Of a DNA stretch of 64,000 nucleotides, positions 17,289 to 64,000 are shown one piece after another. The stretch is from Pseudomonadota bacterium. GTDB lineage: Bacteria > Pseudomonadota > Gammaproteobacteria > Arenicellales > UBA868. The notes under the pieces are model-generated. The model had not been told where the DNA came from. It made no database searches and saw only the letters and a list, made by a program, of their open reading frames with translations. Numbering within the stretch: position 1 is the stretch's first letter; each line of letters opens with the position of its first letter. The position numbers and the translations under genes are program-made. The stretch is taken from contig JABHUE010000124.1 in assembly GCA_018672825.1 (NCBI GenBank), positions 1 to 64,000 of the forward strand, read 5' to 3'.

Positions 17289-17531
17289 TCAACCTCCCGT
17301 CAGTGGGGCCATCACGACCATCTCGTTACCCTCTACCAGAATAAAGTCATCTCTTTTTGCTCTTGACACCGCCTGGCCGTCAATAGACACGAGCCCTACC
17401 TGCTCAACCGGGATACCGAGCAAAAGAATTGCATCAGAAATGCTGGCACCGTCAGGCAACTCGAGCGCGTCAACCGAGCAAAAATCAATCAAGTGGCCGG
17501 TTACTCTTATCCCAATTCGCACGGGCGTCAA
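17289..17531 (-). CDS. MoaD/ThiS-like ubiquitin-fold sulfur carrier protein
   Basis: 80 aa, GASISDAILLLGIPVEQVGLVSIDGQAVSRAKRDDFILVEGNEMVVMAPLTGG with terminal GG; probable TTG start overlapping the AOR stop by 4 bp. Confidence 0.8.
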   Translation of the reverse strand: MTPVRIGIRVTGHLIDFCSVDALELPDGASISDAILLLGIPVEQVGLVSIDGQAVSRAKRDDFILVEGNEMVVMAPLTGG

Positions 17532-19345
17532 CCAAGGCCAAGTCGACCTAGTGTGTCATCAGTTGGCACGCCGTCCTCAGACCAACCGCGAAGATCATAG
17601 TATTCCGGTAGCATTTTATCGAGCTCATTAACCTTTCCTTTAGCCGTGCCACTGGGCGCCGGATCCTTAAGGAGGCGCTCAGGCAATGTGTCATCTGCTT
17701 TTGTTAGGCCGGCGGCCAGATTGAACATTCGCTCAAGATTCCAAATACGTTCCCCAGATTTCATTAAGCGCTCGGCAGTCCAGTCGCCCTCGCTGTCGGC
17801 GTCTAACTGCGCCGCAAATTCTGGCGCACCCCACGCTCCCATGGTAAACATGCAAAGCCCGCTCGAATCAACGGCGGCCGTCCAGTCTTGAGATGTTTTG
17901 CATGGATCCGCCTTACCGTTACCCGTCTGGTCATCCATATCGACTTCAAACGTATCGTGCTTGAGATGGCAAGCACCCCGGTTGCCCGTCGCGTAGCCCA
18001 ACCCCATCCCCTGTAACGCTCGGGAATCATACCCGGCAAACTCCTGGCCTTTGACCGTCATCGACAATTCGGGATGTCCGTATTTCTCGCACATTAGCCT
18101 AGATCCCAATCCCAGCATTACCCCAAATCCCTCTTGTTTACCTGTCTTTTCAGCCATAACTGTCAGCGCTTCCGCATTGCCAAAGTTCAAAGGCACGCCG
18201 TCGGTGTCCTCGGTGGTAATCACGCCCATTTCGAAAAGCTCCATTGCCGCCGCGAGCGTTACCCCAAACGAGATCGGATCAATTCCATGTTCATTCATGA
18301 GATAGCCAGCGAACGTACAGGCATCTATATCGTCCACTCCAATGACGGGCCCAAACGCAAACGCGGTCTCGTATTCAAGGCCGCCTGAAGCATGCCAATA
18401 TTCTTTCCGGTTTTGGATAGTGAAGTGGTCTTGGCGGATGTGGGCAATGCGGCCGCAGGCGATCGTACACCCAAAGCAGGCTTTATTAGTCAATAGATTG
18501 GTGTGGCCCGTGTCGTCAGTTTTCATCATTGCTTTAGCGTCGACTTTGTCCGCCCCCTCAAACTGTACTTCCTGAAAATTTCGCGTCGGTAATCCACCAA
18601 ACTCCTGCATGGTGTCCATCATCGCGTTGGTCCCGTATTTGGTTAGTCCTCCGGTGTGCTCAGCCAGGAGATTTTTCATTTCCTGGGTCACAGTCATGAA
18701 TCGCTTCGGATCTTTTACTTTGACGCCGCCCGTGCCGCGTACCGCCACGGCCTTAAGGTTTTTCGAACCCATAACCGTACCAACGCCTGAACGGCCTGCC
18801 GCTCGGTGAAGATCATTAACCACCGAAGCGTAGCGCGCGCCTCGTTCACCCGCAATGCCGATCGTCGCAATCTTGAGCATCGGATTGTGATGCTGCTTCT
18901 TAATCCACTCGTCTGTCTCCCAAACGGTTTTGCCCCAAATCTTCTCGGCGGGTGCGAGACTTATCTCATCTCCTTCGATGAGCAGATAGACCGGCTTTTC
19001 CGACTGACCCTCCACAAGCAGTAAGTCAAATCCGGCATATTTAAGTTCTGCGCCAAACTTGCCGCCACTATTCGAGCAGGCAATCGCGCCTGTCAGCGGA
19101 CTCTTGGTGATTACGGCATATCGTCCACTTGTCGAAGCATTTGTCCCCGTCAACGGGCCCGTTGCAAAAATTAAGACATTGTCAGGTGCCATGGCATCTG
19201 CTTTCGGATCCATATTTTCCCAAAGATATTTCGTACCCAATCCGCGCTCACCAATGTAATCCTTCGCCCATTCCATGTTGAGCGCCTCTGGCGTAATCTC
19301 GTGTGTGGTGAGGTTCACGCGCAAAATTTTTCCTTGCCAACTCAT
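17528..19345 (-). CDS. Aldehyde:ferredoxin oxidoreductase family protein (probable tungstopterin enzyme)
   Basis: Start revised from the track ORF to ATG at 19345 (MSWQGKILRVNLTTHEITPE). YIGERGLGTKYLWENMDP; ATGPLTGTNASTSGRYAVITKSPLTGAIACSNSGGKFGAELKYAGFD; CFGCTIACGR; DSSGLC. Confidence 0.93.
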   Translation of the reverse strand: MSWQGKILRVNLTTHEITPEALNMEWAKDYIGERGLGTKYLWENMDPKADAMAPDNVLIFATGPLTGTNASTSGRYAVITKSPLTGAIACSNSGGKFGAELKYAGFDLLLVEGQSEKPVYLLIEGDEISLAPAEKIWGKTVWETDEWIKKQHHNPMLKIATIGIAGERGARYASVVNDLHRAAGRSGVGTVMGSKNLKAVAVRGTGGVKVKDPKRFMTVTQEMKNLLAEHTGGLTKYGTNAMMDTMQEFGGLPTRNFQEVQFEGADKVDAKAMMKTDDTGHTNLLTNKACFGCTIACGRIAHIRQDHFTIQNRKEYWHASGGLEYETAFAFGPVIGVDDIDACTFAGYLMNEHGIDPISFGVTLAAAMELFEMGVITTEDTDGVPLNFGNAEALTVMAEKTGKQEGFGVMLGLGSRLMCEKYGHPELSMTVKGQEFAGYDSRALQGMGLGYATGNRGACHLKHDTFEVDMDDQTGNGKADPCKTSQDWTAAVDSSGLCMFTMGAWGAPEFAAQLDADSEGDWTAERLMKSGERIWNLERMFNLAAGLTKADDTLPERLLKDPAPSGTAKGKVNELDKMLPEYYDLRGWSEDGVPTDDTLGRLGLG

Positions 19346-19815
19346 GACGCTGTCTCCTGATTTGATTGTTTCGCAGCTGCCGCCATTCGCCCTACGCCAG
19401 AGGCGCCAGCGTCGACGTAAGTAATCGCATCCGTTGGGCACGCCGCTACGCACTGAGGGTCTCCTCCGCAAAGATCGCATTTATCGACCTTTCCGCTAAA
19501 AGGGTTGAACTCGATCGTCCCAAAAGGACACGCTGAAACACAGGCTTTACAACCCACACAAGCCTGGGCACTAACCAGTTTTGCACCCAAATCACTATCA
19601 ATGGATATCGCGTTCGTTGGACATGCTTTCATACACCACGCTTCGACGCATTGCGTACAGGTATAAGGCACTGATGTACGGCCATGCTCAAACTCGAACA
19701 CCCGAATCCGAGAGCGGGCTGGAATAAACTCTCCTTCATGCTCAAAACTGCAAGCCATCTCACACTGCAGACATCCCGTGCATAGACTTGGCTCCATATG
19801 AAGCGATCGCTGCAT
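19342..19815 (-). CDS. 4Fe-4S ferredoxin-type protein, electron-transfer partner of AOR
   Basis: Multiple CxxCxxC...CP motifs; ATGA overlap with the downstream AOR start. Confidence 0.9.
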   Translation of the reverse strand: MQRSLHMEPSLCTGCLQCEMACSFEHEGEFIPARSRIRVFEFEHGRTSVPYTCTQCVEAWCMKACPTNAISIDSDLGAKLVSAQACVGCKACVSACPFGTIEFNPFSGKVDKCDLCGGDPQCVAACPTDAITYVDAGASGVGRMAAAAKQSNQETAS

Positions 19816-46801: not shown

Positions 46802-47011
46802 ATGCCCATGCAAGACTCTGAAAAAATTCATACTGTGGTAATTAATCACGAAGAACAATATTCAATCTGGCCAACGCAAAAAACACTACCGGAAGGATGG
46901 AGTGCGGTTGGCGTCGAAGGTTCCAAACAACACTGCCTCGACTACATTGAAAAACATTGGACAGACATGAGGCCTCTCAGCCTTAGGAAAACATTAGAAG
47001 GAGCAGAGTAG
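46802..47011 (+). CDS. MbtH-like NRPS chaperone
   Basis: [55 protein letters not shown] matches the NxExQYSxWP...GW...G...[18 protein letters not shown] signature. Confidence 0.95.
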
Positions 47012-47017
47012 TTACAG

Positions 47018-47332
47018 ATGAGTGATAAACCCTCAACACCCCAAAAACCCTATGAAGCCTTGATAAAACGATGCTGGGACGATAGTGCGTTCAAACAAAG
47101 ATTGCTCGCTGATCCTGCCGCCGTTATTGAGGAAGCTGGCCTCCCACTTCCAGTCGGCATAACTGAAGTTAAGGCCATAGAAAATGGACCTTCCCAACTG
47201 ACTATTGTAATTCCACCCAATCCAAAAAATTTGCCAGATGCAAGTTCTAAACTAATCGCAGGCGGTTACTTTATCTTTTCGCGCGGCGGATTTTCGTGTG
47301 ATTTTATTGTTCATTCTGACGAAGATTCCTAG
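47018..47332 (+). CDS. Nitrile-hydratase-like leader peptide (NHLP) family natural-product precursor
   Basis: YEALIKRCWDDSAFKQRLLADPAAVIEEAGLPLPVGITEVKAIENGPSQLTIVIPPNPKNLPDASSKLIAGG|YFIFSRGGFSCDFIVHSDEDS: NHase-alpha-like leader (A..KRCWDDxAFKQRLLADP..., IPPNP), double-Gly site, 21-residue tail. Confidence 0.82.
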   Translation: MSDKPSTPQKPYEALIKRCWDDSAFKQRLLADPAAVIEEAGLPLPVGITEVKAIENGPSQLTIVIPPNPKNLPDASSKLIAGGYFIFSRGGFSCDFIVHSDEDS

Positions 47333-47362: not shown

Positions 47363-48532
47363 ATGCAAAGCGAACTTTCAGTTGCAGCAAGCAGTCAAAC
47401 CAAGTTAGACCTTGATTCCCACATTCAGCCCTGTCCCGAGACATATGAGCTTGTTGCTGGGGAAATTGGAGTCAAATATAAGTCAATGTTTGATGATCTA
47501 ATGCATTCGCTTCCGCCTGAAAAAGCAGATCGTGTTCGTGGTTTTGCAGCACCTGAATCAGACATTTGGACCGACGAAACCGTCTGGACGGTCAAAGGAT
47601 CCGGCGCTCCAGGCGCGGTTAGTCCGGAGGGTCGCATTCGAACCTTGGATCATATGGGTGTCGCCCGATCCTTGATTTTTTCAGATCCCGGAGTACAGGC
47701 CACAGCCATGGGTACGGGCGAACTCGCTCTCGATACCATGCGGCACTGGAACGACTTCATCGTAAATTTTAGCGCGACCGACCCAAATCGTTTAAGAGGG
47801 GTTGCGATTCTCAACACCGAAAGCGTCTCGACAGCAGTTATAGAAGCAACTCGTGTATTAAATGCGGGGGGGCGTGCATTTGTACTCCCCAGCAGCGTCC
47901 CACCTGGCGATGCATCTCCTGCGAGCCACGAGATGGATCCGCTTTGGGCAATGTTGTCGGAGGCCAATGCGACAGTTACGCTCCATGCCGGTGGTGAAGA
48001 AGGTTTTTTAGCCAGCCAGAAATGGGACGATGGAGTAGCACACCTTAAGTTCGACACTATCGACTACAGCGCCGAAGGTGAACAAATTAGCCCTTACCTG
48101 TTTTCCACGATGTCACTCGCCCCCCAAAATTTTGTAACCCTAATGGTAATGGGAGGAGTTTTCGAGCGGTTTCCCGCACTCCGATTTGGAATTATTGAGC
48201 TCGGGGCGCACTGGCTGGCACCCTTAGCATTACACCTCGATAACACTTTCAAGATTTTCTCGCGTCGATTCAAAGGGGTGCTGGAATTACTACCGTCAGA
48301 ATATATTCGCCGCAACATTCGAGTGACGCCGTATCGCATCGAGAATATTGCTGACCATATCGAGCGCTATGGGCTTTCGGAGTGCTACTGCTACAGCAGT
48401 GATTTCCCCCACCCAGAGGGTGGACAAGATCCGATCAAGGATTTTGATACCAGCATTTCAAAAATGGGCCCAGCGATCAACGAAAAATTCTTTTGTAAAA
48501 ATGGAGAGTGGGTACTACCTGCTTTTTCCTAA
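47363..48532 (+). CDS. Amidohydrolase family protein (Amidohydro_2 type)
   Basis: LDLDSHIQPCPETYE metal-site motif; MVMGGVFERFPALRFGIIELGAHWLAPLALHLD; YCYSSDFPHPEGGQDP. Confidence 0.85.
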   Translation: MQSELSVAASSQTKLDLDSHIQPCPETYELVAGEIGVKYKSMFDDLMHSLPPEKADRVRGFAAPESDIWTDETVWTVKGSGAPGAVSPEGRIRTLDHMGVARSLIFSDPGVQATAMGTGELALDTMRHWNDFIVNFSATDPNRLRGVAILNTESVSTAVIEATRVLNAGGRAFVLPSSVPPGDASPASHEMDPLWAMLSEANATVTLHAGGEEGFLASQKWDDGVAHLKFDTIDYSAEGEQISPYLFSTMSLAPQNFVTLMVMGGVFERFPALRFGIIELGAHWLAPLALHLDNTFKIFSRRFKGVLELLPSEYIRRNIRVTPYRIENIADHIERYGLSECYCYSSDFPHPEGGQDPIKDFDTSISKMGPAINEKFFCKNGEWVLPAFS

Positions 48533-48587: not shown

Positions 48588-51500
48588 ATGGAAAATCTAG
48601 CTGCGCGATTGGCGGCGCTGTCGCCAGAAAAAAGAGCGTTACTCTCCAAGGCATTAGCAGCGAAGAAAGACGGGCATAAGAACGTCAATGAACGTCCATT
48701 ACCGCGACAAGACCTCAATGCACCCGTTCGACTGACCTTTGCTCAACAACGGCTCTGGTTTCTTGACCAGCTCGAGGCGGGTGGCGCAACATACAATATG
48801 CCGATCGCTGTTGAGATGATCGGACCGCTTAATGTTGACTTACTCCAGCAGACCCTTCAACACACTATTGATCGCCATGAGATTTTGCGTGTTTGGATTT
48901 CTGACGAAAACGGAAAGCCAAGACAAAGTTTAAGAGAATCGTTGGTAGCCGAACTACAGTTCTCTGATCTATCTAACGACGGCCGTGAGGTCATTGACGA
49001 AATCACAAGAGATGAAGCGTCGAAAAGTTTTTGTCTTGCTAACGATCCTCTTATTCGCTTTAAACTTTTAAAGGCTTCAGAAACCCGCCATATACTTCTA
49101 GTCACGATCCATCACATCATTGCCGATGGATGGTCGATCGGAAAAGTTCTGCTTCGTGATTTTATTGAAATTTACGGGGCGCTCGTTAATAACCGATCGC
49201 CAGTTCTTCCCGTTTTACCGATCCAATATCTTGACTTCGCTAAGTGGCAGGAAACAATTCTTCAAGGCTCGAAACGACTTTCGCTTGAGAATTACTGGAA
49301 AAAAAAACTAGTCGGACTCCCTCCTCTGCTCGAACTGCCAACTGACCGGCCGAGACCCGTAACGCAAACCCACAACGGCGCCGTGCATCACTTCTCTTTC
49401 ACGAAAGAAGAACTGACCAGTATAAAAGCTCTTGCTAACTCTCAGCGCGCAACCTTGTTCATGGTTTTGCTATCAAGTTTCGCGTTAGTGCTATCTCGCA
49501 TGGCCCGACAGACTGATTTTGCGATCGGAACTCCAACTGCGGGGCGAGATTATCCCGGAACGGGGGACCTGATAGGACTTTTTGTGAACTCGCTTGTGAT
49601 GAGAGTGAAAATAGATCCATCTCTCTCAGTCTCTCAACTGATTCAGCAGGTAAGAAACACATGCTTGGAAGGTTATCAACATCAGGATATGCCATTTGAG
49701 TATCTGGTAGACCAATTGAGGCCAGAAAGAAGCGCTAGTTTTTCTCCGTTATTTCAAACGATGCTAATTTTACAAAACCAGAACACGGATCGAGAAAACT
49801 TAAGTGCAGGCGGTGTGAGCATGGCGAGCCTACCAGTGGACTCTGCTACCGCGATGTTCGATTTAACCCTGAAACTTGAAGAGCAAGCTGGCGCGCTTTG
49901 GGGTGAAATTGAATTCAATACTGACCTATTCGATCCTCAAACTGCGGAATTAATTGGACAGTACGTCAAGTCTGCTCTTGAATTCATGAGCGAGAATCCA
50001 GCACGTTCGATCGATGATAGCTCGCTAATTCGCTCCACCAATAAAGAGACATTTTCGCGCCGCTTGGTCAGTTCCAACTGGTCAACCCCTTCATCCACCC
50101 TGCTTGAAAATTTTTCAATCCAAACGCAAAACTTTCCTGAAAAGATTGCCGTGCGGACCAGCGCGTCTCATTATGACTATCATCAACTTCTTAAACGCTG
50201 CAATCAGATTGCCACCGACCTATTAACAAGAGGGATTCCGCCTGAGACCCACATCGGAATCTGCATGCAGAGAACCCCAGATCTTCTAGCGGCTTTACTT
50301 GGCGTTTTGCGAGCAGGTTGCGCTTATGTCCCAATCGATCCAACTTACCCGCAGGATCGAATTACGAGCATCATTGATCAGGGAGTATTAAGTCTAGTTC
50401 TCACTGATCAATCCTCGGAAGAAAGGATGGCACTTAGCACTACCCCGATCCTGGTCATTGATCATAAGTTTCAGTCAGAATCTTCGAACCCAAACCCGCA
50501 GATAACATTTCCGTCTATTCATCCTGATCAGCTTGCGTATATTATTTTCACGTCGGGATCGACTGGCCGACCTAAAGGTGTACAAATCACCCATCGGGCA
50601 TTAAATAATTTTCTCAACGCAATGTCCAAAGAAGCTGATCTGCTATCTACGGACCACCTCGCTGCTGTAACAACCATCTCGTTTGACATAGCAGCATTAG
50701 AGCTTTATCTGCCTCTAATGTCAGGCGCAACAATCGAATTAGTTGACAGAGAAACAGCAAGTGATGGTTTTGCCCTTCTCGAACGCCTCAAGAGCTGCTC
50801 AGCCACAATAATGCAAGCGACCCCGGCAACCTGGCGAATGCTTCTGGCAACAGGTTGTGAAAAACTTTCAATTGGAAAAGCGCTCTGCGGTGGAGAGGCG
50901 CTTGATGCAGAGCTCGCGAAAGATATGACCGATGCGGGCCTGTCAGTCGTAAACCTTTATGGACCAACCGAAACGACGATCTGGTCATCCACGAGACACC
51001 TCAACAGTGAGGTTAAAGGACTCTACGCCGATCTTGGAAACCCGATTAACAGTACATCCTTTTGTATTCTTGACGACAATTTAAACCCTTGCGGAATGGG
51101 AGTTCCAGGGGAACTGTATATTGGCGGAGCCGGTGTCGGTCGTGGATACATCGGACAACCCGCTTTAACAGCGGATCGCTTTCTGCCTGATTTGGACTCA
51201 ACCCGACCAGGCGCCCGGATGTACAAAACTGGAGATTTGGCAGTCCTACGACATGATGATCGCCTGGATTATCTAGGTCGAGCCGACTTCCAGGTCAAAA
51301 TCCGGGGGTATCGAATTGAACTAGGCGAGTTGGAGTCAGTTCTAAAATCCCATAACGCAATTCACAACGCCGTGTCCGTGGTAAGAGACTCTCCATCCGG
51401 AAAACAGTTAATTGCTTATGTCGAGCCGGAATCTAATTGGCATGAACTACTGCAAGAGAGTGTTGCGCCGAAAAGCGATCAATGGTTAAACGTTTGGGAT

Positions 51501-54500
51501 GAAAGTTATCGACAACTGAACACGAACGTCGGCGAAGATGATTTCAGCGGGTGGCTTAGCAGTGTCACGGGTGAGCCAATGGCCCATGATCAGATGAAAA
51601 GTTGGGCAGACGTGACGGCCGCCAGAATACTCGACTATGCGCCCAGCAATGTTCTCGAGATCGGTTGCGGCACTGGTTTAATTGCATCTCGAATCATTGA
51701 TTCAGTTTCCCACTATTCAGGAATTGATTTCTCTCAAGAAGCAATCCAGAAAACAACGCATTGCCTTAGTCAACGGGGTCATTCACACTTCACGCTGGCC
51801 CAGAGTAGCGCCGACCACATTCCAGAGATGAACTTATCAGCGATTGATATGCTGATTATCAACTCTGTCGCTCAATATTTTCCTTCCTTTGACTACCTTT
51901 TAAAAGTCATCGGGCAATTAATGCCGATCCTCGCCCCAAATGCGGTGATTTTCCTCGGAGACTTGAGGCACTTCGATTTTCTAGACCACATTAATAGTCG
52001 AATTCTTCTCGCGACTGAAGAAGGACAGACCACCGTGGAGATCTTCAACCGTAAACTTCAACGCGCTCTTGAAGGAGAACAGGAACTCCTCATCTCACCG
52101 AATGCTTTTGCTGAAGAGACATTTGGGTCTAGCCGACTGTTCGCTATTGAACTTCTAATGAAGCCAAATGGGCTTGATCGGGAGCTTCAGGATTTTAGAT
52201 ATGATCTTGCGATTCATCTAGATGCTGACCAGGATTTCTGCGCATGGGCAAATTCTCTACCCCGCATCACACCGCCACTCTATGGCGACATTTCCTCGCT
52301 TGAGAATGGGCTACTAACGCATCCTTCCGGATTTCTAATCAACGGCCTCGAAAACAGCCGGTTGTCCGGAACGCAGAATTTTCTACAGAATTTAAAAGAC
52401 TCTGACGACTCAACCCCGATCGCAGATATCCTAAATGATCTACCCATCGATCAGATGAGTGAAGATTCGTTAGAGAAATACCTTACCTGGGCTGAGAAAA
52501 ATAGAGTTCAGATTCGAATTCGGTGGGATGATACCAACACCGGTTCACTCGAAGCGCTCGTTGCCCCCTCGACATCGCGGCAATTGCCGCACGGGTTCTA
52601 CCTTCTAAACCCAAAGCCAAAAAGAAAGCTAGTTAACCAGCCTAGATCAGCGTCTAGCGATATAACTTTAAAACGTGAACTTGAGGACGGACTTCAAGCT
52701 AACCTCCCCGAATACATGATTCCGTCGGCGCTTGTGGTTTTGGATAAGATTCCCCTCACCCCAAATGGAAAAATCGATAGGAATGCACTGCCTGATCCAG
52801 AACTCTCGCTATCAAGAGTAGCTTTTGTTGAACCGGCGACACCGCTAGAAATTTCGATTGCACAAATCTGGAAGGATCTTTTAGGGGTATCGTCAATTAG
52901 CGCCACCGATCACTTTTTCAGGCTCGGCGGCCATTCTCTCCTTGCGGTCCAAGTGATCGCTCGGATTCGAGAGAAAACAGGTTTGAATGTCGAATTACAG
53001 TCTATTTTTGATTCTCCCGTGTTGCGAGATTTTGCGATCAAGTTGGGAGACATTAGTCGCAATATTAACTTTCTTCCTGAACTTAAGCCCTATTCTGCAA
53101 GCAAAAGAAACGCGGCACCTCTTACAGAGCAACAACGGCAGCTTTGGTTTCTTGACCAGTTACATGGTGCTCAACCAACCTATCAGGTTTCAAGCACTGT
53201 AGAAATCATCGGGCCTCTTGACCATGAAGCCTTAAGACAAAGTCTTGAACTGATTGTTTCAAGACATGACGCATTACGAAGCAATTTTCAACAAATCCCC
53301 ACGGGTGTTGTTCGAGTAACACAGGAATTACCGATACTTGATTGGCAATGTTATGACTTAATCAACGAGTCAGACCTAGCCCAACAGATCAAAAAAGCGC
53401 TCACTGAAACATTTGACCTTGCCCATAGTCCGCTCCTGCGATGCCATTTGCTGACGGTGACCGCCGAGCGCACTGTTCTGGTACTTACCGCGCACCATAT
53501 CATCACCGATGAATGGTCAATTGGGATAATTCAAAACGAACTTGCACACTACTACCCTATCTTTAGATCAGGGCAACATCCAACCCCAGATCCACTCCCG
53601 ATTACTTACAGGGACTACGCTTTATGGCGAGAGTCATGCAAATTAAGTGATGCTTACAAAGAAAGTGAGGCATTCTGGCAAGACCTTCTTAAGATTTCAC
53701 CGTCTTCGCTCGATTTAGTCACTGACTTTCCAAGGCCGGCAAAACAATCCGACACGGGGGCAATTCTCTCAGGAAAAATAACCAATTCATTGCGCCAACG
53801 CCTAAAAAGGCTAACTTCAAAAACGTCAACCACCTTGTTCATGGCTTTAATTAGTGCATGGGCTGTCGTTTTAAGCCGTCGTTCGGGTCAAAAAGAATTA
53901 GTCATTGGTGTGCCCGTTAGCGATCGAAGTCACTCAGGTCTAGAAGCGCTCATCGGTTTTTTTGTCAATACCATACCTTTGCGCATTGATCTGACTGGCC
54001 AACCCACGATGGAGGAACTCCTTGACCGCGTCCGTACATCGTCGCTCGATGCCTTGCGCCATCAAGCAGTATCATTTGAGCGGATTGTTGAGCTCGTCAA
54101 TCCCGAAAGAAGTCTCTCGCAAACGCCAATTTACCAATCGGTGTTTGTTTTACAAAACGCGCCTAAAGCCCCTCTCGGGTTTGGTGACCTATCCCTTACG
54201 GTCTTGGAAAGTGACCCGGGCGTTTCCAAATTTGACATAACGCTCTCGGTTGAAGAGCAGGACGATTCTATCGAATGTCTGATCGAATACCGAACGGACC
54301 TTTTTAGACGTGAGACAGTCGAGCAAATGCTCAACGAATTTGATTTAGTGCTCGATGTCATGACTCGCTCAATCGAGCAACCCGTCGACAATATCCCCTG
54401 GGTTAGTGAACAGAATGAAACCCAACTTTTAGAGCGATATCAATCTGACAAAACTGCTCAGCTCGATATCGACGTGCTTTCGAAGTGGAAATCGCAAGTT

Positions 54501-57500
54501 GAAAAAAACAGTGATCGACCTTGTGTGCAGCACGGCTCACAACAACTGTCGTTTTCACAAATTGACCATTGGGCCGATCAGCTATGCGTGAAACTCGCAG
54601 ACACCGGATTAAAGCCTGGAGACGTTGTTGGTGTTTATGCGGAACCCACGCCTCTAATGGTCACCGCTATCGTGTCCGCGCTGAAAATGGGTTGCGCGTT
54701 TCTCCCATTACTTCCAGACACCCCACGCAATCGCCGTCAACGAATGTTGTCTACTGCTAACTGTAAGGTCGTCATTGACTGCGAAGGGAATTTCGAACAA
54801 GCTGGCATCGTCTGCGTGAAACCAGCCACCCTCTCATCCGAAGCGCCTTCTCTCGCGCAGTACCCACACTTTTCAAATGAATTACCTGCTTACATCATGT
54901 TTACCTCAGGTTCGACAGGTGAACCTAAGCCAGTAGTTGTCAACCGAGGAAACCTGGCCGCTTTTGTGTCCGCCCGGGAGAATTTTTATCCAGATCCGCC
55001 AAAAGAGCACCTTTTACTTCAACCTTTTAATTTTGATGTAGCGATAGGAAATCTGTTCTGGACCCTGTGCTTGGGGGGATGTGTTCACCTTAAGCCGCGA
55101 TCCTTAACGCGCGATCCTTTCCTTTTACTAGACGCAATCGAGCGTGAAAAAATTACCCATCTTGTGTTGCTGCCTTTACTGTACGAGCCGTTGCTATCAA
55201 TCGCAACCTCAGACCAATTCGCGTCCTTGACTTGCGTGATTCTCGGGGGCGAACAGATGCCATCAGATCTACCGGAAAGGCACTACGCGGTAAATCCAAA
55301 CGCAACGATCTATAACGAGTATGGCCCCACAGAAACGACTGTGATGTGTGCGGCTCATCCGGCAATCGACCCGTCGGCATTCGGGCGTCATCCTATCGGG
55401 AATGGTATCGGAAAAAGCCATTTATATATCCTGGACGAGCAACTCAATCTAATGCCTCCGGGGATTACCGGAGAACTCTATATTGGGGGCCCTCAGGTCT
55501 CGAATGGCTATCTTAATCGACCAAGAGAAACTGCCAGAATGTTTCTACCCGATCCGTTCTCAAAAAAGGCGGGTGCTCGCGTTTACCGGTCAGGTGACCT
55601 GGCCAGACTCCGACATGATGGCATGATAGAGCTGCTAGGGCGCCAGGATGATCAGGTCAAAATTCGCGGGAATCGAATCGAGCTAGGAGAGGTGGTACAT
55701 GCCATCCGAAAATTATCTGGCGTTGAAGAAGCGGCTATCAAGATCGATCGATCTGGAACTAATTCCCGACTAATTGCTTACATCACTCTTAAAGAATCAG
55801 AAGAATTGTCAGATGTCGATGTTATCAGGCAACTTGAGAGAGAGATTCCCAGCTACATGGTGCCAAGCGGGGTCATGGTACTGCAGTCTTTACCGCGCTT
55901 GCCGAACGGAAAAATAGATGAGCATGCTCTCCCCGACCCTGTTTTTTCATCGCAAGATCAATGCTTACCCGAATCAACTCAAGAGCAGAAAATGCTAGAG
56001 ATATGGCAACAGGTGCTCTCTTTGGATGAGATCGGCTGCGAGGATAATTTTTTCGAGCTCGGTGGAGATTCAATTCTCTCAATTCAAATTGTTAGCAAGT
56101 CTCGTCAATCCGGTCTTGAAATATCTGCGAGTGATCTATTTCAACACCAGACTATTCGTGGGCTCTGCGAACAGGTTCGCACGCCAGAAACAAATAGCCT
56201 CGAAGAGCCTGAGGAACCAATCAAGTTTTCTCTGACCCCAATACAGCGATGGTTTATTGAAAGAAATGCGACTGCACCACATCACTTTAACCAGTCACTC
56301 TTACTTGAGATCTCAAAGTCGATAACGCAATCGGATGTGCAGTCCGCATTAAAAGGTCTTGCAGCTCGTCATCCGATGCTCAGAATGAGATTAGCAGTCG
56401 ATTCCCCTGGTCACGCTCTCTCTTATGCTGAGGAGGAGCCCACTTTTGACCTTATAGAGATTCAAAATGACAGCGAAATATCGACTCGCCTTGACAAACT
56501 CCAAAGCACACTCAATTTAATAACAGGACCCATTTGGCGGGTTTGTCGTTTTAAGACTAATGATGAATATGATCGCTTATTTATTCTGATTCATCATATG
56601 GCTGTAGATGGGGTTTCATGGCGAATACTACTGAACGACCTTGAAAACTTACTTCGAACACCGGATTTTTTTGGGACCCAACGTCCTGTTGGCTTTGGCC
56701 ACTGGTCTCAGCATCTACACGACTATCGGGTCCCTGACCAACATATTAATTATTGGGCGAGCGTGCCGCCAGCAGTATCACTGCCATCGAAGTCAGCAAC
56801 TGCTGTAAATATGTGGGGTCAAGAAGAGGTCTATGCACAGGCACTTGATTCGGCGATAACAGAGTCTTTAATTGGGGTAACACCGTCCAAGCTAGGGGTC
56901 AGCACGCTAGACCTCCTGCTGACCGCACTTCACTATGCGGTTGCAAAATGGACACAGAAAAGCGATGTCGGATTAACCATTGAAAGTCACGGTCGAAATC
57001 TCGATCACTTTGACGTAGATCTCACAGAAACCGTTGGATGGTTCACCGTACTTTACCCGCTAATCCTTAAGGCTGATCCAGATCTCCCATTATCCGATCG
57101 TCTGCGTAGACATCGGGACACTCTGCAGAGAGTCCCAAACAAAGGTCTTGATTTTGGAGTCCTTAGGTATCTAAGTGATGATTCATCGATCAAAGCAGCA
57201 CTTCAAATATCGGAACATCAGGCGATCAGTTTTAATTACCTTGGCCAGTTTAACGCTGACTCAAATAACGATCTGATCATTGGTGAAGCAAAAGAATCAG
57301 TGGGCAAAGAAATCGCGTTACTCGGGGAAAGAACCCATCAAATCGACATTAATTGCTATGTCAGTAAGGGTGTTTTTCATTTCTTCTGGACTTACTGTCC
57401 GGCATTGCAAACAGAAGAGACAATCGCGTTGCTTGCCAACACTATGGCGTCTGAACTTCAGCTGCTTAACGAGATTGCTCAGAATTCAGAAGGATTCAAC

Positions 57501-59273
57501 GCAATGACAACTGCGGACTTTCCGCACGTCAACTTAACCTGGACAGATCTTCGCTCGCTTGACTCTAAATTTGCGCCACAGCAGATGACCGCTGCTTACC
57601 CCATGTCAGTCACGCAGCAAAGCATGCTCATACAAAGTCAACGCGCGCCAAGAGCGGGCGGATATGTCGTTCAATTTGCATGCAATCTCAATGGCAACCT
57701 AAATGTTAAAAATTTCAAGTTAGCGTGGCAGCATACTGTTAATTGTTATGAATCACTCCGTTCGGCGCCGTATACCACTCAGAACGATGCTCTGATACTT
57801 GCGATATTGAAGGACGTAGCCGTTGCATGGACAGAATTAGACTGGATCGCATTATCAACTATGGATCAATCAAGCAAGTGGTCCTTGCTTTTAACTGACG
57901 ATCGACGGGCTGGCTTTAATGAAACCGACTATCCATTAATGCGTTGCATGCTTATTCAAATCGAGAATCAGCAGTGGAGACTCCTTTGGACTCAACATCA
58001 CATCGTCAGTGATGGCTGGTCTCTACCGATCATCCTGACTAGCGTCTTTGAGACATATGAACGACTTCAGACTCAGACCCCTCTACCTTTAAGAAAAAAA
58101 GCCCCTTCTTATGGTGCCTATTTAGATTGGAAAAATCAGCAAAACCCAAAGCGATCAACTGCCTTTTGGTCGAATTATCTGAGCGAGATTACCCAACCAT
58201 CACACATCGGACACTTCTTAAATCCGGATAAAGAAGAAACTTTTCTATCAACCCAATTATCCCTTTCGCCATCGACAGGTTACAGCCTGCGCGAGTTTGC
58301 AAAATCTCAAAAAACCACTTTAAGCGCCTTAATTGAAATCTCAGTAGGAGTGCTTATTGGGAATTGGACGCTCAAACAAAAAAGTATTTTTGGAACGACA
58401 GTTTCTGGGCGGCCACCCGAAGTGAATGCTATTGAAGACATGGTTGGAATGTTTATTAATACCGTACCGGTCTGTATTGACTGGAATGACCAGACCACAA
58501 TCGAGGTCCTTTTACGAGGTCATCAAGAGAATCAAATCGCACGCTTAGGACATGAACATATTTCACTCTCGGAAACAATCAATCTGTGCTCGCTGCCTCA
58601 ACGCGTTCAACCGTTCGACTGCCTGTGCGTTTTTGAAAATTATCCCGTCAGCAATGCGCTAATCGATCAGAATGCAGCACTCGTGATGGATCAAATTGAA
58701 GTATTTGAACAAACCGATATTCCAGTAACACTCACCATCCAACCCAATACCTGCATAGAGCTTCACCTATCATCGTCTACACACTTTTTTGATAAAAATT
58801 GCGCTGAACTCTTCCTTAAATCCCTAAGCGCTCTTCTCGGTAGCTTAGCGAAAAATGAAAATCAATCGATTAACAACTGGTGCAAGAATACTCTGCCCGA
58901 ATTACAGACCAAGCTTCAAACCCTACGCCCCGGCCGACCCGATCTTAAGGCGCTAGTTGAATCGAATGCAGAAGCATCTGTTTTTGAAGAGCCACGTGGT
59001 GATACCGAAGCGACGATAGCCTCTCACTACTGTGACGTTTTGTCCATTGAATTGCCAAGTCGAAATGATGATTTTTTTGCGATCGGGGGTCATTCACTTT
59101 TGGCAGCGCGCTTGGCGAGTCGTCTGAGTAACGCCTTTGATGTCGAGGTATCGGTAGCAACGGTATTTGAGCGAAATACAATTTCGACCATGGCAATCTT
59201 TCTAGAAAGTCAACGGTGGGCGCTTCTTGATGATGCGGACGACTCGAACGATTTTGAAGAGATTGTGTTTTGA
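48588..59273 (+). CDS. Nonribosomal peptide synthetase, C-A(MT)-T-C-A-T-E-C-T
   Basis: C1 HHIIADGWS; A1 YIIFTSGSTGRPKGV...NLYGPTETTIW with MT insertion (VLEIGCGTGLI) before the A10 motif PLTPNGKIDRNALP; T1 LGGHSLLAV; C2 HHIITDEWS; A2 YIMFTSGSTGEPKPV; T2 LGGDSILSIQ; E HHMAVDGVSWRIL and ETVGWFTVLYP; C3 HHIVSDGWS; T3 IGGHSLLAARL. Confidence 0.97.
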   Translation: MENLAARLAALSPEKRALLSKALAAKKDGHKNVNERPLPRQDLNAPVRLTFAQQRLWFLDQLEAGGATYNMPIAVEMIGPLNVDLLQQTLQHTIDRHEILRVWISDENGKPRQSLRESLVAELQFSDLSNDGREVIDEITRDEASKSFCLANDPLIRFKLLKASETRHILLVTIHHIIADGWSIGKVLLRDFIEIYGALVNNRSPVLPVLPIQYLDFAKWQETILQGSKRLSLENYWKKKLVGLPPLLELPTDRPRPVTQTHNGAVHHFSFTKEELTSIKALANSQRATLFMVLLSSFALVLSRMARQTDFAIGTPTAGRDYPGTGDLIGLFVNSLVMRVKIDPSLSVSQLIQQVRNTCLEGYQHQDMPFEYLVDQLRPERSASFSPLFQTMLILQNQNTDRENLSAGGVSMASLPVDSATAMFDLTLKLEEQAGALWGEIEFNTDLFDPQTAELIGQYVKSALEFMSENPARSIDDSSLIRSTNKETFSRRLVSSNWSTPSSTLLENFSIQTQNFPEKIAVRTSASHYDYHQLLKRCNQIATDLLTRGIPPETHIGICMQRTPDLLAALLGVLRAGCAYVPIDPTYPQDRITSIIDQGVLSLVLTDQSSEERMALSTTPILVIDHKFQSESSNPNPQITFPSIHPDQLAYIIFTSGSTGRPKGVQITHRALNNFLNAMSKEADLLSTDHLAAVTTISFDIAALELYLPLMSGATIELVDRETASDGFALLERLKSCSATIMQATPATWRMLLATGCEKLSIGKALCGGEALDAELAKDMTDAGLSVVNLYGPTETTIWSSTRHLNSEVKGLYADLGNPINSTSFCILDDNLNPCGMGVPGELYIGGAGVGRGYIGQPALTADRFLPDLDSTRPGARMYKTGDLAVLRHDDRLDYLGRADFQVKIRGYRIELGELESVLKSHNAIHNAVSVVRDSPSGKQLIAYVEPESNWHELLQESVAPKSDQWLNVWDESYRQLNTNVGEDDFSGWLSSVTGEPMAHDQMKSWADVTAARILDYAPSNVLEIGCGTGLIASRIIDSVSHYSGIDFSQEAIQKTTHCLSQRGHSHFTLAQSSADHIPEMNLSAIDMLIINSVAQYFPSFDYLLKVIGQLMPILAPNAVIFLGDLRHFDFLDHINSRILLATEEGQTTVEIFNRKLQRALEGEQELLISPNAFAEETFGSSRLFAIELLMKPNGLDRELQDFRYDLAIHLDADQDFCAWANSLPRITPPLYGDISSLENGLLTHPSGFLINGLENSRLSGTQNFLQNLKDSDDSTPIADILNDLPIDQMSEDSLEKYLTWAEKNRVQIRIRWDDTNTGSLEALVAPSTSRQLPHGFYLLNPKPKRKLVNQPRSASSDITLKRELEDGLQANLPEYMIPSALVVLDKIPLTPNGKIDRNALPDPELSLSRVAFVEPATPLEISIAQIWKDLLGVSSISATDHFFRLGGHSLLAVQVIARIREKTGLNVELQSIFDSPVLRDFAIKLGDISRNINFLPELKPYSASKRNAAPLTEQQRQLWFLDQLHGAQPTYQVSSTVEIIGPLDHEALRQSLELIVSRHDALRSNFQQIPTGVVRVTQELPILDWQCYDLINESDLAQQIKKALTETFDLAHSPLLRCHLLTVTAERTVLVLTAHHIITDEWSIGIIQNELAHYYPIFRSGQHPTPDPLPITYRDYALWRESCKLSDAYKESEAFWQDLLKISPSSLDLVTDFPRPAKQSDTGAILSGKITNSLRQRLKRLTSKTSTTLFMALISAWAVVLSRRSGQKELVIGVPVSDRSHSGLEALIGFFVNTIPLRIDLTGQPTMEELLDRVRTSSLDALRHQAVSFERIVELVNPERSLSQTPIYQSVFVLQNAPKAPLGFGDLSLTVLESDPGVSKFDITLSVEEQDDSIECLIEYRTDLFRRETVEQMLNEFDLVLDVMTRSIEQPVDNIPWVSEQNETQLLERYQSDKTAQLDIDVLSKWKSQVEKNSDRPCVQHGSQQLSFSQIDHWADQLCVKLADTGLKPGDVVGVYAEPTPLMVTAIVSALKMGCAFLPLLPDTPRNRRQRMLSTANCKVVIDCEGNFEQAGIVCVKPATLSSEAPSLAQYPHFSNELPAYIMFTSGSTGEPKPVVVNRGNLAAFVSARENFYPDPPKEHLLLQPFNFDVAIGNLFWTLCLGGCVHLKPRSLTRDPFLLLDAIEREKITHLVLLPLLYEPLLSIATSDQFASLTCVILGGEQMPSDLPERHYAVNPNATIYNEYGPTETTVMCAAHPAIDPSAFGRHPIGNGIGKSHLYILDEQLNLMPPGITGELYIGGPQVSNGYLNRPRETARMFLPDPFSKKAGARVYRSGDLARLRHDGMIELLGRQDDQVKIRGNRIELGEVVHAIRKLSGVEEAAIKIDRSGTNSRLIAYITLKESEELSDVDVIRQLEREIPSYMVPSGVMVLQSLPRLPNGKIDEHALPDPVFSSQDQCLPESTQEQKMLEIWQQVLSLDEIGCEDNFFELGGDSILSIQIVSKSRQSGLEISASDLFQHQTIRGLCEQVRTPETNSLEEPEEPIKFSLTPIQRWFIERNATAPHHFNQSLLLEISKSITQSDVQSALKGLAARHPMLRMRLAVDSPGHALSYAEEEPTFDLIEIQNDSEISTRLDKLQSTLNLITGPIWRVCRFKTNDEYDRLFILIHHMAVDGVSWRILLNDLENLLRTPDFFGTQRPVGFGHWSQHLHDYRVPDQHINYWASVPPAVSLPSKSATAVNMWGQEEVYAQALDSAITESLIGVTPSKLGVSTLDLLLTALHYAVAKWTQKSDVGLTIESHGRNLDHFDVDLTETVGWFTVLYPLILKADPDLPLSDRLRRHRDTLQRVPNKGLDFGVLRYLSDDSSIKAALQISEHQAISFNYLGQFNADSNNDLIIGEAKESVGKEIALLGERTHQIDINCYVSKGVFHFFWTYCPALQTEETIALLANTMASELQLLNEIAQNSEGFNAMTTADFPHVNLTWTDLRSLDSKFAPQQMTAAYPMSVTQQSMLIQSQRAPRAGGYVVQFACNLNGNLNVKNFKLAWQHTVNCYESLRSAPYTTQNDALILAILKDVAVAWTELDWIALSTMDQSSKWSLLLTDDRRAGFNETDYPLMRCMLIQIENQQWRLLWTQHHIVSDGWSLPIILTSVFETYERLQTQTPLPLRKKAPSYGAYLDWKNQQNPKRSTAFWSNYLSEITQPSHIGHFLNPDKEETFLSTQLSLSPSTGYSLREFAKSQKTTLSALIEISVGVLIGNWTLKQKSIFGTTVSGRPPEVNAIEDMVGMFINTVPVCIDWNDQTTIEVLLRGHQENQIARLGHEHISLSETINLCSLPQRVQPFDCLCVFENYPVSNALIDQNAALVMDQIEVFEQTDIPVTLTIQPNTCIELHLSSSTHFFDKNCAELFLKSLSALLGSLAKNENQSINNWCKNTLPELQTKLQTLRPGRPDLKALVESNAEASVFEEPRGDTEATIASHYCDVLSIELPSRNDDFFAIGGHSLLAARLASRLSNAFDVEVSVATVFERNTISTMAIFLESQRWALLDDADDSNDFEEIVF
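51430..52650 (+). other. Methyltransferase domain embedded in adenylation domain A1 (between A8 GYRIELGELES and A10)
   Basis: VLEIGCGTGLIASRIIDSVSHYSGIDFSQEAI SAM-binding motif inside the NRPS. Confidence 0.88.
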
Positions 59274-62200
59274 AAGATCTTGATACCCTTATTTCAGCAC
59301 TCCAAGAGGCTGGCATTTCCATCCGTGTGGATGACGCGGGCAATCTCGTCGTGAAAGCGCCTCCAGGGGCAATGACCGCTCACTTATCTTCTGAAATCAA
59401 ATCAAATAAAACCCGACTTCTAGACTTCCTGAGTGCCGCTGAATCATCACGAAAGCGTCAACGTAATCGAATTGATAAAAAGACAGAGGCGGATCGTAGC
59501 CAGTTATCTGATGCACAAAAAAGACTATGGTTCCTCCACTTATTGGATAACACTTCAACTGCGTACAACATGCCTCTGGCGGTTCAGATTGTCGGTGATA
59601 TCGAGTTTGATCGACTTGAGAAAGCGCTCCAAGACATTGCCTACCGGCATGAAAGTTTGCGAACCCGATTCGAAGGGCACGGGGGTGCCGTTCAGGCCAT
59701 CGTTGACTCCACTCCTCAACTCAAACTTGAACTTCTTGCGAACTCCAAGTTACCTCAAGACATTAACGAGCAGATCCGCCATTCAACCCAAAAAGCAACC
59801 GAGCATCATTTTCAACTCGCCGAGGAGCATGGAATAAAAGCGTGGCTAAAACCACTCAACGATGGCAGCCATTTATTAATGGTGACACTTCACCATATCG
59901 TAGCCGATGGCTGGTCTTTGGCAAATTTAATTTCAGAATTTTCCCGACGGTATGAAGATCCCAACGCAACAATCCCGGATTTGCCCATTCAATATGCAGA
60001 CTATGTCGGATGGCTACAAAGTAATCATTCAGCGATTGAGCGAAACCTCGATTGGTGGAAGAGCACAATGGTGGGTGCACCCGAAAAGACGTCACTCGCA
60101 TACGACCGTGCTCGCCCATCAGTTGCTACTTACGAGGGATCTGAGCTATTTGAAACGATTTCCAATGAAACAATCGGAGCGATAAAAAATCTGGCGCTTG
60201 AAACCGAAAGCACCCCTTATATTGTCCTACTATCTGCTTTCGCATTATTTATTCAGAAAGCGGCGAACACCGAGCAGGTCGATGAAATTGTACTGGGAAC
60301 GACAGTTGCCAATCGAGATTTACCTGAGCTCGAGCCCTTGATCGGACTGTTTATTAATATGTTGCCGCTCCGGTTAGCGCCATCGAAACCAGAGTCAGTC
60401 CTCGACTTAATCGCCCATGTCAAAGCTGTCTTCCTCAGTGCACACGAACATCGAGATGTGGCGTTTGAACAGATTGTTGAAACAATCAATCCCCCGAGAG
60501 CGTTGAATCACTCTCCTCTTTTTCAAATTACATTTGACGTGCAAAATCAGCCAGCCGCTGATTTGACTCTTGGGTCCAACGTCCTCCACCCTATTACCCC
60601 GACAATCAAAAATTCCAAGTTTGACTTATCGGTGACCGTTGAGATCTCTGAATATAGTCCGACTGTCCAGTGGGTTTGGAATACTTCAATTTTTGACAAA
60701 CGAACTATTGAAAACTGGGCAAAAAACTTTAATCACTTTGTAGATCAATTTGCGCAGGCAGCAATACAGCCGCTTAATCAAATTGGCAGTTTGGCACCTC
60801 AATTGGAACTCGCATGGATCAATACTCAGAAAAATAACCTTACATCAAAAGACTTGCCTAATTGGATTGCGATGTTTGAAAAAAACGTTGCAAATCGTGG
60901 TAACGCGATTGCTGTTAAGGACGAAGTCCAGGCCTTTTCATACGTGGAACTCAGAGACCGAGCGCAGCAGATCGCCCGCGAACTAATCGAGTCAGGGGTC
61001 GAGCCAGGAGATCGGGTTATTGTCCTAAAGCACCGGGACGTGGATTTGGTGGCCTGCTTAATGGCGACCCACTACGCGGGTGCGACCTACATACCGCTTG
61101 ACCCCTACTACCCCGAAGAAAGACTTACCTGGGTCGTTGAAGACTCAGATCCCAGAGTCATCCTAACCGAACGTAATCTGGCATCTCAGCCTTCAATTTC
61201 GACGCGACAAGTCTTAGTCCTTGAAGATATCTCGGAGCGACCACTCGCCCACTTTTTGCCTGGTCCAAACAAGGCTCAATCGGCATATATCATCTTTACC
61301 TCTGGTTCGACTGGTCGTCCAAAAGGCGTTTCAATTGGGCACCTTGCCCTGACTAATTTTCTTTGCAGTATGACTCGAGAGCCCCAGCTTGACCAACACG
61401 ATAATCTACTTGCAGTGACTACAATTTCGTTCGATATTGCTGTGCTCGAGCTTTTTTTACCCCTTATTGTTGGCGGCACCACAACGATTGCGAGTCGCCT
61501 CAGCGCAATCGATGGGCGAGCTTTAATTAATCTGGTCGATAAAGAACAAATTACCTGCATTCAAGCGACTCCTAGCACTTGGAGATTGATGCTCGACGCT
61601 GGCTGGAGTTCAGCAAAAAACTTTAAAGCGTTGTGTGGCGGCGAGGCATTACCGAGTGGATTAGCTGGGGAGATCATATCAACGGGCGCCACTCTTTGGA
61701 ACATGTACGGCCCAACAGAGACTACGATATGGTCCGCAGTGAAAAAAGTAACAGTAGAAACATCAGCTTCGGCGTCAGGCAATGAATCTCTAGGGATCGG
61801 CATCGATAACACCCTTCTCTATGTGCTCGACACGTCCTTCAATCTCGTGGGCACCGGATGCATCGGCGAATTGTGGATTGGTGGCATCGGACTGGCTCAA
61901 GGTTATTGGCAACAACCATTACAGACGGCCGAACGATATCGACCTGATCCGTTTTCTGATGAACCGGGCTCTCGAATGTACGGCACGGGCGATTTAGTGC
62001 GAATCAGGCCAGATCAACATCTTGATTTTCTGGGTCGAATTGACAATCAAGTTAAGCTTCGCGGTTTCAGAATCGAACTTGGCGACATTGAGTCAGCGTT
62101 ATTGCAGCACCCCCAAGTCATCGCCGCCGCAGTCACTGCGGAAGGAAGCACACCAGAGAGTCAACAGTTGATCGCTTATGTGCAGAGTGAGGTTGGCGAA

Positions 62201-64000
62201 GAAAGCATTAGGTCAATATTGCGTGAGCGCTTACCTGGCTACATGCTCCCCTCGATAATCATCAGTGTTCCCAAATTTCCCCTGACGCCAAACGGAAAAA
62301 TTGATCGCCGTGCGTTATCAGCTTTTAAAAAAGCCTTACCTAAACCGGTACGGTCTCGCCCCCCAAAAACGCAAGTGCAGCGACTGCTCACTGAAATTTG
62401 GGGGGAGTTTCTCGAATTAGAAAGTGTAGATATTGCAACCAACGTATTTGAACTTGGCGCGCATTCATTGATGCTGAGCCAGGTCCAGCAACGATTAGCT
62501 GAAACCTTAGAAAAACCCATCGCACTCATTGATCTGTTCCGCTATCCCACTATTCAAGCGCTAAGCGACTTTCTGGATCAGCAACCAAAAAGAATATCTT
62601 CCCGCTCTCTGATTACCAAAGCCGCCTCATCAGAAATTGCGATTATTGGCGCCGCTGCAATACTGCCCGGTGCGCCAAATATAGATGCGTTTTGGGATCT
62701 ACTCAAAAAAGGTGACAGCGGCATCCAGCAATTCACGATCGAGCAACTCCGAGACGCAGGTCTAGAAGACACGCTGATCACAAATCCCGCTTTTGTTCCA
62801 GCGCATGGCGCCATTAGTGATATTGAATTTTTTGACGCAGGATATTTTGGAATTTCTCCATCCGAAGCCCGACTCATCGATCCGCAGCAACGACTTTTTA
62901 TGCAAAACGCGGTTCATGCGCTTGAAAACGCGGGATATGCGCGTTTTGACAAAGCTCAAAATATCGGGGTCTTTGCCGGCAGCGGTCAGAACGATTACCT
63001 CATTAACAATGTGTTGCCATTTCTAGATTCAAGCGGGTCAGCTGATTCCTATGATGCGATCATTGCCTCCGAGAAAGACTTTCTCACAACTCGACTTTCT
63101 TATCTGCTTAACCTGACCGGTCCAAGCCTGAATATCCAGACGGCCTGTTCAACGGGTTTAGTGGCTGTCCACGCAGCTTGCCAAGCGCTTCGCTCTGGTG
63201 AGTGCGAAATAGCGCTTTCAGGCGCCGTGGCGTTACGGATACCTCAAATAAATGGGCATCTTTATCAGGAAAATATGATCGTTTCGCCCGACGGAAATTG
63301 TCGACCATTCGATCAGCAAGCGAATGGAACCGTTTGGGGTAGCGGTGTCGTCGCTTTTGTACTGAAGCCGCTTGAGCAGGCCATCGCTGACTGCGACCGA
63401 ATTATGTCGGTGATAAGAGGTAGCGCAATTAACAATGATGGTGCCACAAAAGTAGGATTTACAGCACCAAGCGTTGAAGGGCAAACCCGGGTCATTCGAT
63501 CAGCGCTTGCAGACGCGTCTGTTAATCCATCTGACATTCAATACATCGAAACCCACGGGACCGCCACCGCGTTGGGAGATATGATTGAGTTCGAGGCGTT
63601 GAAAGATATTTGGCATAACCAAAATTCGACATGCTTTCTTGGGGCCGTAAAATCACAGATTGGACATCTTAATTCTGCGGCCGGAGCTGCAGGACTTCTC
63701 AAAGTCGTACTAGCGCTAAAACATCAAAACATACCGCCTTCCCCTTATTTTCAATCCCCTCAAGAAAAGCTTGATTGCTTTAACGATCATTTCAAGATCT
63801 CAACTCTTCTAACTCCCTGGCCTAACGATAAAGTCCGAAAAACAGCGAGCGTCAGTTCTTTTGGAATTGGAGGGACGAATGCCCATCTCGTACTAAGCGA
63901 TGGGCCTGAAACTAATACGGCACGCCCGGCCGATCTCTGTCCGCAGGTCTTAACGCTTTCGGCAAAATCTGAAACCGCACTTAACAGTCTCTGCCGAATA
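59270..64000 (+). CDS. Hybrid NRPS-PKS, TubC-like docking-C-A-T-KS-... (partial, runs past window end)
   Basis: Not in ORF track. TTG start at 59270 overlaps the NRPS TGA by 4 bp (TTGA); 1577 codons open to base 64000. Docking MKDLDTLISALQEAGISIRVDDAGNLVVKAPPGAMTAHLSSEIKSNKTRLLDFL; C HHIVADGWS; A YIIFTSGSTGRPKGV...NMYGPTETTIW; T LGAHSLML; KS IAIIGAAAILPGAPNIDAFWDLL, TACSTGLVAVHAA, ETHGTATALGD, KSQIGHLNSAAG. Confidence 0.95.
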   Translation, partial: MKDLDTLISALQEAGISIRVDDAGNLVVKAPPGAMTAHLSSEIKSNKTRLLDFLSAAESSRKRQRNRIDKKTEADRSQLSDAQKRLWFLHLLDNTSTAYNMPLAVQIVGDIEFDRLEKALQDIAYRHESLRTRFEGHGGAVQAIVDSTPQLKLELLANSKLPQDINEQIRHSTQKATEHHFQLAEEHGIKAWLKPLNDGSHLLMVTLHHIVADGWSLANLISEFSRRYEDPNATIPDLPIQYADYVGWLQSNHSAIERNLDWWKSTMVGAPEKTSLAYDRARPSVATYEGSELFETISNETIGAIKNLALETESTPYIVLLSAFALFIQKAANTEQVDEIVLGTTVANRDLPELEPLIGLFINMLPLRLAPSKPESVLDLIAHVKAVFLSAHEHRDVAFEQIVETINPPRALNHSPLFQITFDVQNQPAADLTLGSNVLHPITPTIKNSKFDLSVTVEISEYSPTVQWVWNTSIFDKRTIENWAKNFNHFVDQFAQAAIQPLNQIGSLAPQLELAWINTQKNNLTSKDLPNWIAMFEKNVANRGNAIAVKDEVQAFSYVELRDRAQQIARELIESGVEPGDRVIVLKHRDVDLVACLMATHYAGATYIPLDPYYPEERLTWVVEDSDPRVILTERNLASQPSISTRQVLVLEDISERPLAHFLPGPNKAQSAYIIFTSGSTGRPKGVSIGHLALTNFLCSMTREPQLDQHDNLLAVTTISFDIAVLELFLPLIVGGTTTIASRLSAIDGRALINLVDKEQITCIQATPSTWRLMLDAGWSSAKNFKALCGGEALPSGLAGEIISTGATLWNMYGPTETTIWSAVKKVTVETSASASGNESLGIGIDNTLLYVLDTSFNLVGTGCIGELWIGGIGLAQGYWQQPLQTAERYRPDPFSDEPGSRMYGTGDLVRIRPDQHLDFLGRIDNQVKLRGFRIELGDIESALLQHPQVIAAAVTAEGSTPESQQLIAYVQSEVGEESIRSILRERLPGYMLPSIIISVPKFPLTPNGKIDRRALSAFKKALPKPVRSRPPKTQVQRLLTEIWGEFLELESVDIATNVFELGAHSLMLSQVQQRLAETLEKPIALIDLFRYPTIQALSDFLDQQPKRISSRSLITKAASSEIAIIGAAAILPGAPNIDAFWDLLKKGDSGIQQFTIEQLRDAGLEDTLITNPAFVPAHGAISDIEFFDAGYFGISPSEARLIDPQQRLFMQNAVHALENAGYARFDKAQNIGVFAGSGQNDYLINNVLPFLDSSGSADSYDAIIASEKDFLTTRLSYLLNLTGPSLNIQTACSTGLVAVHAACQALRSGECEIALSGAVALRIPQINGHLYQENMIVSPDGNCRPFDQQANGTVWGSGVVAFVLKPLEQAIADCDRIMSVIRGSAINNDGATKVGFTAPSVEGQTRVIRSALADASVNPSDIQYIETHGTATALGDMIEFEALKDIWHNQNSTCFLGAVKSQIGHLNSAAGAAGLLKVVLALKHQNIPPSPYFQSPQEKLDCFNDHFKISTLLTPWPNDKVRKTASVSSFGIGGTNAHLVLSDGPETNTARPADLCPQVLTLSAKSETALNSLCRI

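Follow-up and report, generated by a model that had tools for sequence, protein, structure and literature searches.

A Candidate NHLP-Fold Accessory Protein for Microsclerodermin-Type NRPS/PKS Biosynthesis in an Arenicellales Bacterium

Does a small protein with a RiPP leader fold, encoded between an mbtH gene and the genes of a hybrid NRPS/PKS assembly line, represent the precursor of a separate peptide, or does it serve the assembly line itself? This question is raised by the ORF at 47018-47332 of the window, i.e., the whole stretch of 64,000 nucleotides analyzed, with which a 117-kb contig begins.

The NHLP Gene and Its Surrounding Cluster

Translation of the ORF yielded a protein of 104 aa featuring the motif LIAGG (residues 79-83) and the tail YFIFSRGGFSCDFIVHSDEDS, as described in the original prediction. 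The gene is located 6 bp after mbtH (ending at 47011) and 30 bp ahead of an amidohydrolase gene (starting at 47363), again in agreement with that description. The single Cys mentioned there holds for the tail (Cys94), but not for the whole protein, since the leader carries Cys19. Membership in the NHLP family was substantiated by a family-model search, in which TIGR03793 (leader_NHLP) matched residues 13-83 (7.6e-17; 60.9 bits versus a cut-off of 50.9); the likewise suggested model NHase_alpha reached 26.5 bits, being slightly under the Pfam cut-off of 27.2. In a profile search, the proteusin NMR structure 8tb1 was the best sequence match (8e-13). A chance ORF is excluded by the TIGR03793 match, by a 68% identical relative residing in the same context in Sheuella amnicola, and by the codon pattern: where residues are conserved, two-thirds of the fourfold-degenerate sites differ.

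The cluster spans positions 46802-93874 and features the following genes and parts, those beyond 64,000 lying on the remainder of the contig:

46802..47011, + strand: mbtH-like gene, 69 aa (PF03621, 8.2e-22), directly upstream of the NHLP gene and 55% identical to the Sheuella mbtH upstream of its NHLP gene
47018..47332, + strand: NHLP-fold protein, 104 aa, ATG start (TIGR03793, Sheuella relative, AlphaFold2 models, Foldseek), comprising a proteusin-type leader domain (residues 10-70), a linker with LIAGG (residues 79-83) and a conserved, hairpin-like C-terminal tail (residues 80-99)
47264..47314, + strand: conserved tail GYFIFSRGGFSCDFIVH, 83% identical to the Sheuella relative (residues 82-99) versus 66% in the leader region
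47363..48532, + strand: amidohydrolase (PF04909, 5.9e-15), MscE-like by position and family (msc gene content, PMC6163206)
48588..59273, + strand: NRPS, MscH-like by domains, C-A(Gly)-NMT-PCP, C-A-PCP-E, and C-PCP without an A domain; 38-39% to the Sheuella NRPS
59270-67636 (59270..64000 in the window), + strand: NRPS/PKS, MscI-like by domains, TubC_N docking domain, C-A(Gly)-PCP-KS-AT-KR-ACP-TE
67784-75139: acyl-ligase PKS, by domains
75136-75876: type II TE
75759-80399: PKS
80400-89477: KS-AT-ACP-AMT-MOX-C-A-PCP, by domains
89504-93874: PKS with KR

The original prediction had recognized the hybrid NRPS/PKS nature of the cluster but missed its known kind. Judged by the published gene list and domain order, the cluster is of the type known for the antifungal microsclerodermins (msc), in this case outside the myxobacteria. 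The msc blueprint includes the amidohydrolase MscE, proposed to accomplish pyrrolidone closure, and a type II TE (PMC6163206). Common to the window's cluster and the msc cluster of Jahnella and Sorangium are the PKS start of the acyl-ligase (AL) type, the AMT-MOX module, which features an Asn-type A domain and precedes a PKS, the Gly-NMT module of the NRPS, the terminal Gly-PKS(KR)-TE module, the amidohydrolase and the type II TE. One further msc trait, the Gly module between Trp and GABOB, is incomplete in the window, leaving the cluster short of one A domain: the third module of the NRPS at 48588-59273 (residues about 3440-3500) consists of C and PCP only, whereas the Sheuella orthologue features a complete Gly-type A domain in this module. 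The window's module may either be loaded in trans or be skipped. Furthermore, the NHLP and mbtH genes are not named among the 14 genes of the published msc list (PMC6163206), and neither the msc halogenase nor the Fe/aKG oxygenase or the MFS transporter was seen in the window's cluster. The open-access literature yielded no description of an NHLP gene in an msc-type cluster.

A-domain codes were read by eye at the GrsA positions given in the literature. The code following AMT-MOX is Asn-like (DATKIGEVGK), those preceding the N-methyltransferase (DILQLGLIWK) and in the last module (DILQLGMIWK) specify Gly. In the first NRPS, the second A domain features DVGLIGEVMK in the window and in Sheuella alike. 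Deduced from module order, the product would comprise a beta-amino polyketide, Asn plus malonate, sarcosine, the residue selected by the DVGLIGEVMK domain, and 4-amino-3-hydroxybutyrate, an order that corresponds to the msc blueprint (PMC6163206).

The clusters of the window and of Sheuella are both bordered by genes encoding an SPFH protein, an ABC exporter and DUF697 proteins (contig C13, 93880-97617; L038, 733-5641), the exporter in Sheuella being of the cyclic-peptide-export type; this flank possibly represents the export or protection module of the cluster. Elsewhere in the window, a tungsten-type aldehyde:ferredoxin oxidoreductase is encoded on the minus strand at 17528-19480 (8c0z, 4e-224).

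Conservation of the NHLP Gene in Sheuella amnicola

A scan of 85,462 species, performed with exact 8-residue words and therefore prone to miss more distant members, detected one NHLP relative (68% identity), residing in the betaproteobacterium Sheuella amnicola (Burkholderiales). The Sheuella gene (95 aa) is again located between mbtH and the orthologous NRPS gene, and this within an orthologous cluster, so that the NRPS association, whose lack in related genomes the original prediction had named as grounds for refutation, holds in a second genome. Identities between the two clusters amount to 44% for the acyl-ligase PKS, about 51-52% for the TEII, 49% for the AMT-MOX module, 42% for the PKS, 38% for the NRPS, 39% for the NRPS/PKS/TE protein and 55% for mbtH. 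The halves of the cluster are swapped, the mbtH-NHLP-NRPS-NRPS/TE block preceding the PKS block in the window and following it in Sheuella, but the mbtH-NHLP-NRPS trio is intact in both genomes despite this rearrangement. Two relatives of the window's amidohydrolase (49-50%) are encoded on another Sheuella contig beside further PKS genes, indicating that the NHLP gene is linked with mbtH and the NRPS rather than with the amidohydrolase. The two Sheuella relatives form a tandem pair of MscE-like amidohydrolases (contig C2, L045, 9442-20000; KS domains 46-51% identical to those of the window's PKSs), and the locus may be a separated portion of the same pathway.

Further members were detected neither in 369 genomes of the class, 399 genomes of the phylum and viral contigs, nor, except for Sheuella itself, in 400 genomes of its order, and the other 109 genomes of the window's order contained no close relative (best other match 33%). 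The protein was also considered as a general accessory of AMT-MOX lipopeptide clusters. No NHLP gene was found around those of Nostoc flagelliforme, Ralstonia sp. RS650 and Streptomyces chartreusis (75-110 kb searched), and such clusters do not, therefore, generally require it. Plasmid-borne NHLPs of Thiodictyon, Tistrella and Nostoc (the Nostoc record being unannotated) were examined as NRPS neighbors, adjacency being shown for none of them.

No other protein of the cluster is as conserved as the NHLP protein, which ranks above mbtH, the TEII and the megasynthases (38-49%); in the megasynthases, only 7.9% of the 91-aa stretches reach 67% identity. Identical fourfold-degenerate sites account for 33% in the NHLP gene versus 20-27% in the other cluster genes; since these sites are as diverged as elsewhere in the cluster, the conservation points to selection and not to recent transfer. 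The conserved place of the gene in the swapped orthologous cluster indicates that this selection ties it to the assembly line. In RiPP families, the core is usually more variable than the leader, and the cores of the control NHLPs were indeed very unlike each other. In the window and Sheuella proteins, by contrast, the tail ('core'), including the fixed, nucleophile-containing segment RGGFSCDFIVH, is identical at 15 of 18 residues (83%) versus 47 of 71 (66%) in the leader. For the two members compared, this pattern indicates strong purifying selection on the protein, the tail included.

AlphaFold2 models of both proteins, built from two-sequence alignments, featured three helices and a hairpin, followed by a second hairpin formed by the tail. 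With mean pLDDT values of 67 and 73, and about 53-75 in the tail, the tail hairpin is to be taken as a suggestion. A Foldseek search for folds beyond proteusin returned no match below E = 0.001, 8tb1 being the top hit at 3e-3.

Leader Signals and Alternative Roles

Tailoring enzymes were described to bind the LXXXXL motif at positions -12 to -7 of proteusins, and the LahT protease to bind this motif as it occurs in a Nif11 leader (PMC10858898); for a proteusin YcaO, both Leu residues were required (PMC12455567). Hydrophobic residues occupied -12 and -7 in each of the 13 control NHLPs whose double-Gly-type site was readable, whereas position -7 is Ser in the window protein and Lys in Sheuella, and position -12 is L in the window and Asp in Sheuella. 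The linker alignment contains a one-residue gap, by which the Sheuella -12 residue may be read as Met at -11; position -7 fails in both proteins regardless. Domain reading recognized no RiPP tailoring enzyme in the cluster, as the original prediction had stated for the surroundings of the gene, and a genome-wide search detected neither YcaO nor LanC-like proteins in the window's genome or in that of Sheuella. A control NHLP of the same order with a standard motif was found together with YcaO and a C39-ABC exporter, indicating that a standard RiPP arrangement would have been picked up.

A C39 peptidase had no match in the Sheuella genome but is present in the genome of the window, where it belongs, together with HlyD, to an NHLP-type exporter locus (TIGR03796, TIGR03797 and TIGR03794) on the 15.8-kb contig C144 (L039, 5027-15723). 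Neighbors of this exporter are a fatty-acyl-AMP ligase-like protein of 1145 aa and a Nif11-like leader peptide; the genes scanned on this contig included no recognizable RiPP tailoring enzyme.

Compared to the proteusin/NHLP leader family (TIGR03793; MprE7, SrpE, PoyA), the window protein shares the leader sequence, the predicted fold, the AGG site and the length, but differs by its broken LXXXXL motif, the missing tailoring enzyme, its invariant tail and its NRPS/PKS neighbors. Hence, the family assignment, the absence of tailoring genes and the NRPS linkage given in the original prediction were upheld, whereas its title of a RiPP-type precursor was not, considering the broken motif, a tail more conserved than the leader, the YcaO and LanC-like proteins missing from both genomes, and the C39 peptidase missing from Sheuella. 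A carrier, a scaffold and a regulator had been among the options that it offered.

A true precursor, the tail of which would be freed at GG with little or no modification, exported separately, and act or be co-regulated with the lipopeptide, nevertheless has some points in its favor. The AGG site and the hydrophobic residue at -4 (Ile) are kept in both proteins, the C144 exporter is available in the window's genome, leaving room for a peptide cleaved in trans, and the family provides precedent (PMC2887384). Against the findings on the -12 and -7 positions, the tail and the absent enzymes, we regard this explanation as unlikely, although worth keeping in mind.

A regulatory or signaling protein governing expression or export of the cluster without contacting the synthetase would agree with a small conserved protein whose gene, in the window, lies near the start of its transcription unit. 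However, the Sheuella gene sits mid-cluster, and no DNA-binding or signaling family was matched, which makes such a role improbable. Slightly less probable still is a ribosomal/nonribosomal hybrid or scaffold, in which the polyketide-peptide chain, or part of it, would be attached to the tail (e.g., at Cys94 or Ser) and then released. The nucleophiles of the invariant RGGFSCDFIVH segment in both clusters would suit this function; RiPP-type enzymes are known to join some NRPS/PKS pathways (PEARL, PMC11212132), and fatty-acylated RiPPs are known from the lipolanthines. Yet a TE of its own terminates the assembly line, which corresponds to a known, self-sufficient cyclic product, and the cluster showed no gene for a ligase, PEARL or acyltransferase. 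The weakest explanation is that of a bystander, or of a remnant from an older RiPP locus, that spread with the cluster by chance. It agrees with the rarity of the gene in the window's order and among AMT-MOX clusters, but fits poorly with the highest conservation in the cluster at saturated synonymous sites and with a place kept through rearrangement.

A Possible Role alongside MbtH

Conservation in a distant bacterium and the missing leader signals render an accessory of the assembly line likelier than the precursor of a separate peptide. Based on comparative sequence analysis, we estimate the chances to be about even that the NHLP (proteusin leader, nitrile-hydratase-alpha-like) fold protein is a dedicated accessory of the microsclerodermin-type NRPS/PKS line. 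More tentatively, a RiPP leader fold may have become an obligatory NRPS/PKS accessory, acting as an adaptor or chaperone alongside MbtH, with the former core turned into a fixed binding hairpin. We favor an adaptor or chaperone serving the MbtH/NRPS block because this is the sole neighborhood kept in both genomes.

In such an arrangement, the 104-aa protein would be neither cleaved nor modified. Its leader domain and the C-terminal beta-hairpin, predicted with low confidence, would present a surface to which a component of the MbtH-MscH-like NRPS block binds, and the protein would support the MscH-like synthetase much as MbtH proteins generally do. A nonribosomal machine would thereby make use of the capacity of proteusin leaders to bind proteins. 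MbtH-like proteins resemble the NHLP protein in being small, stand-alone, conserved beside an NRPS and, as proposed here, partners of a synthetase; they differ by an unrelated fold, and the cluster already encodes a separate mbtH gene. PEARLs (lantibiotic-dehydratase-like ligases) in NRPS/PKS clusters are likewise components of the RiPP type that nonribosomal pathways have recruited (PMC11212132), but they are enzymes, whereas the NHLP protein is of the leader type without an enzymatic domain. Docking of the acidic C-terminus to the TubC_N domain of the next NRPS was also considered and was dropped because the Sheuella protein ends in NR.

Several observations count against an accessory function: the retained AGG site and hydrophobic -4 residue are as expected of a cleavage site, the C39 peptidase of the C144 exporter could act in trans, the tail hairpin is modeled with low confidence, and two members are known, with no NHLP gene in the published msc list or in the three other AMT-MOX clusters.

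The annotation given to NHLP proteins is that of a RiPP precursor, whatever their context. If the accessory role proposed here is true, the NHLP fold can also serve nonribosomal synthesis, and annotation tools mislabel such genes. For one copy of the cluster, the strain is named and its genome public (Sheuella amnicola NBD-18), which makes the product as well as the function of the small protein accessible to testing.
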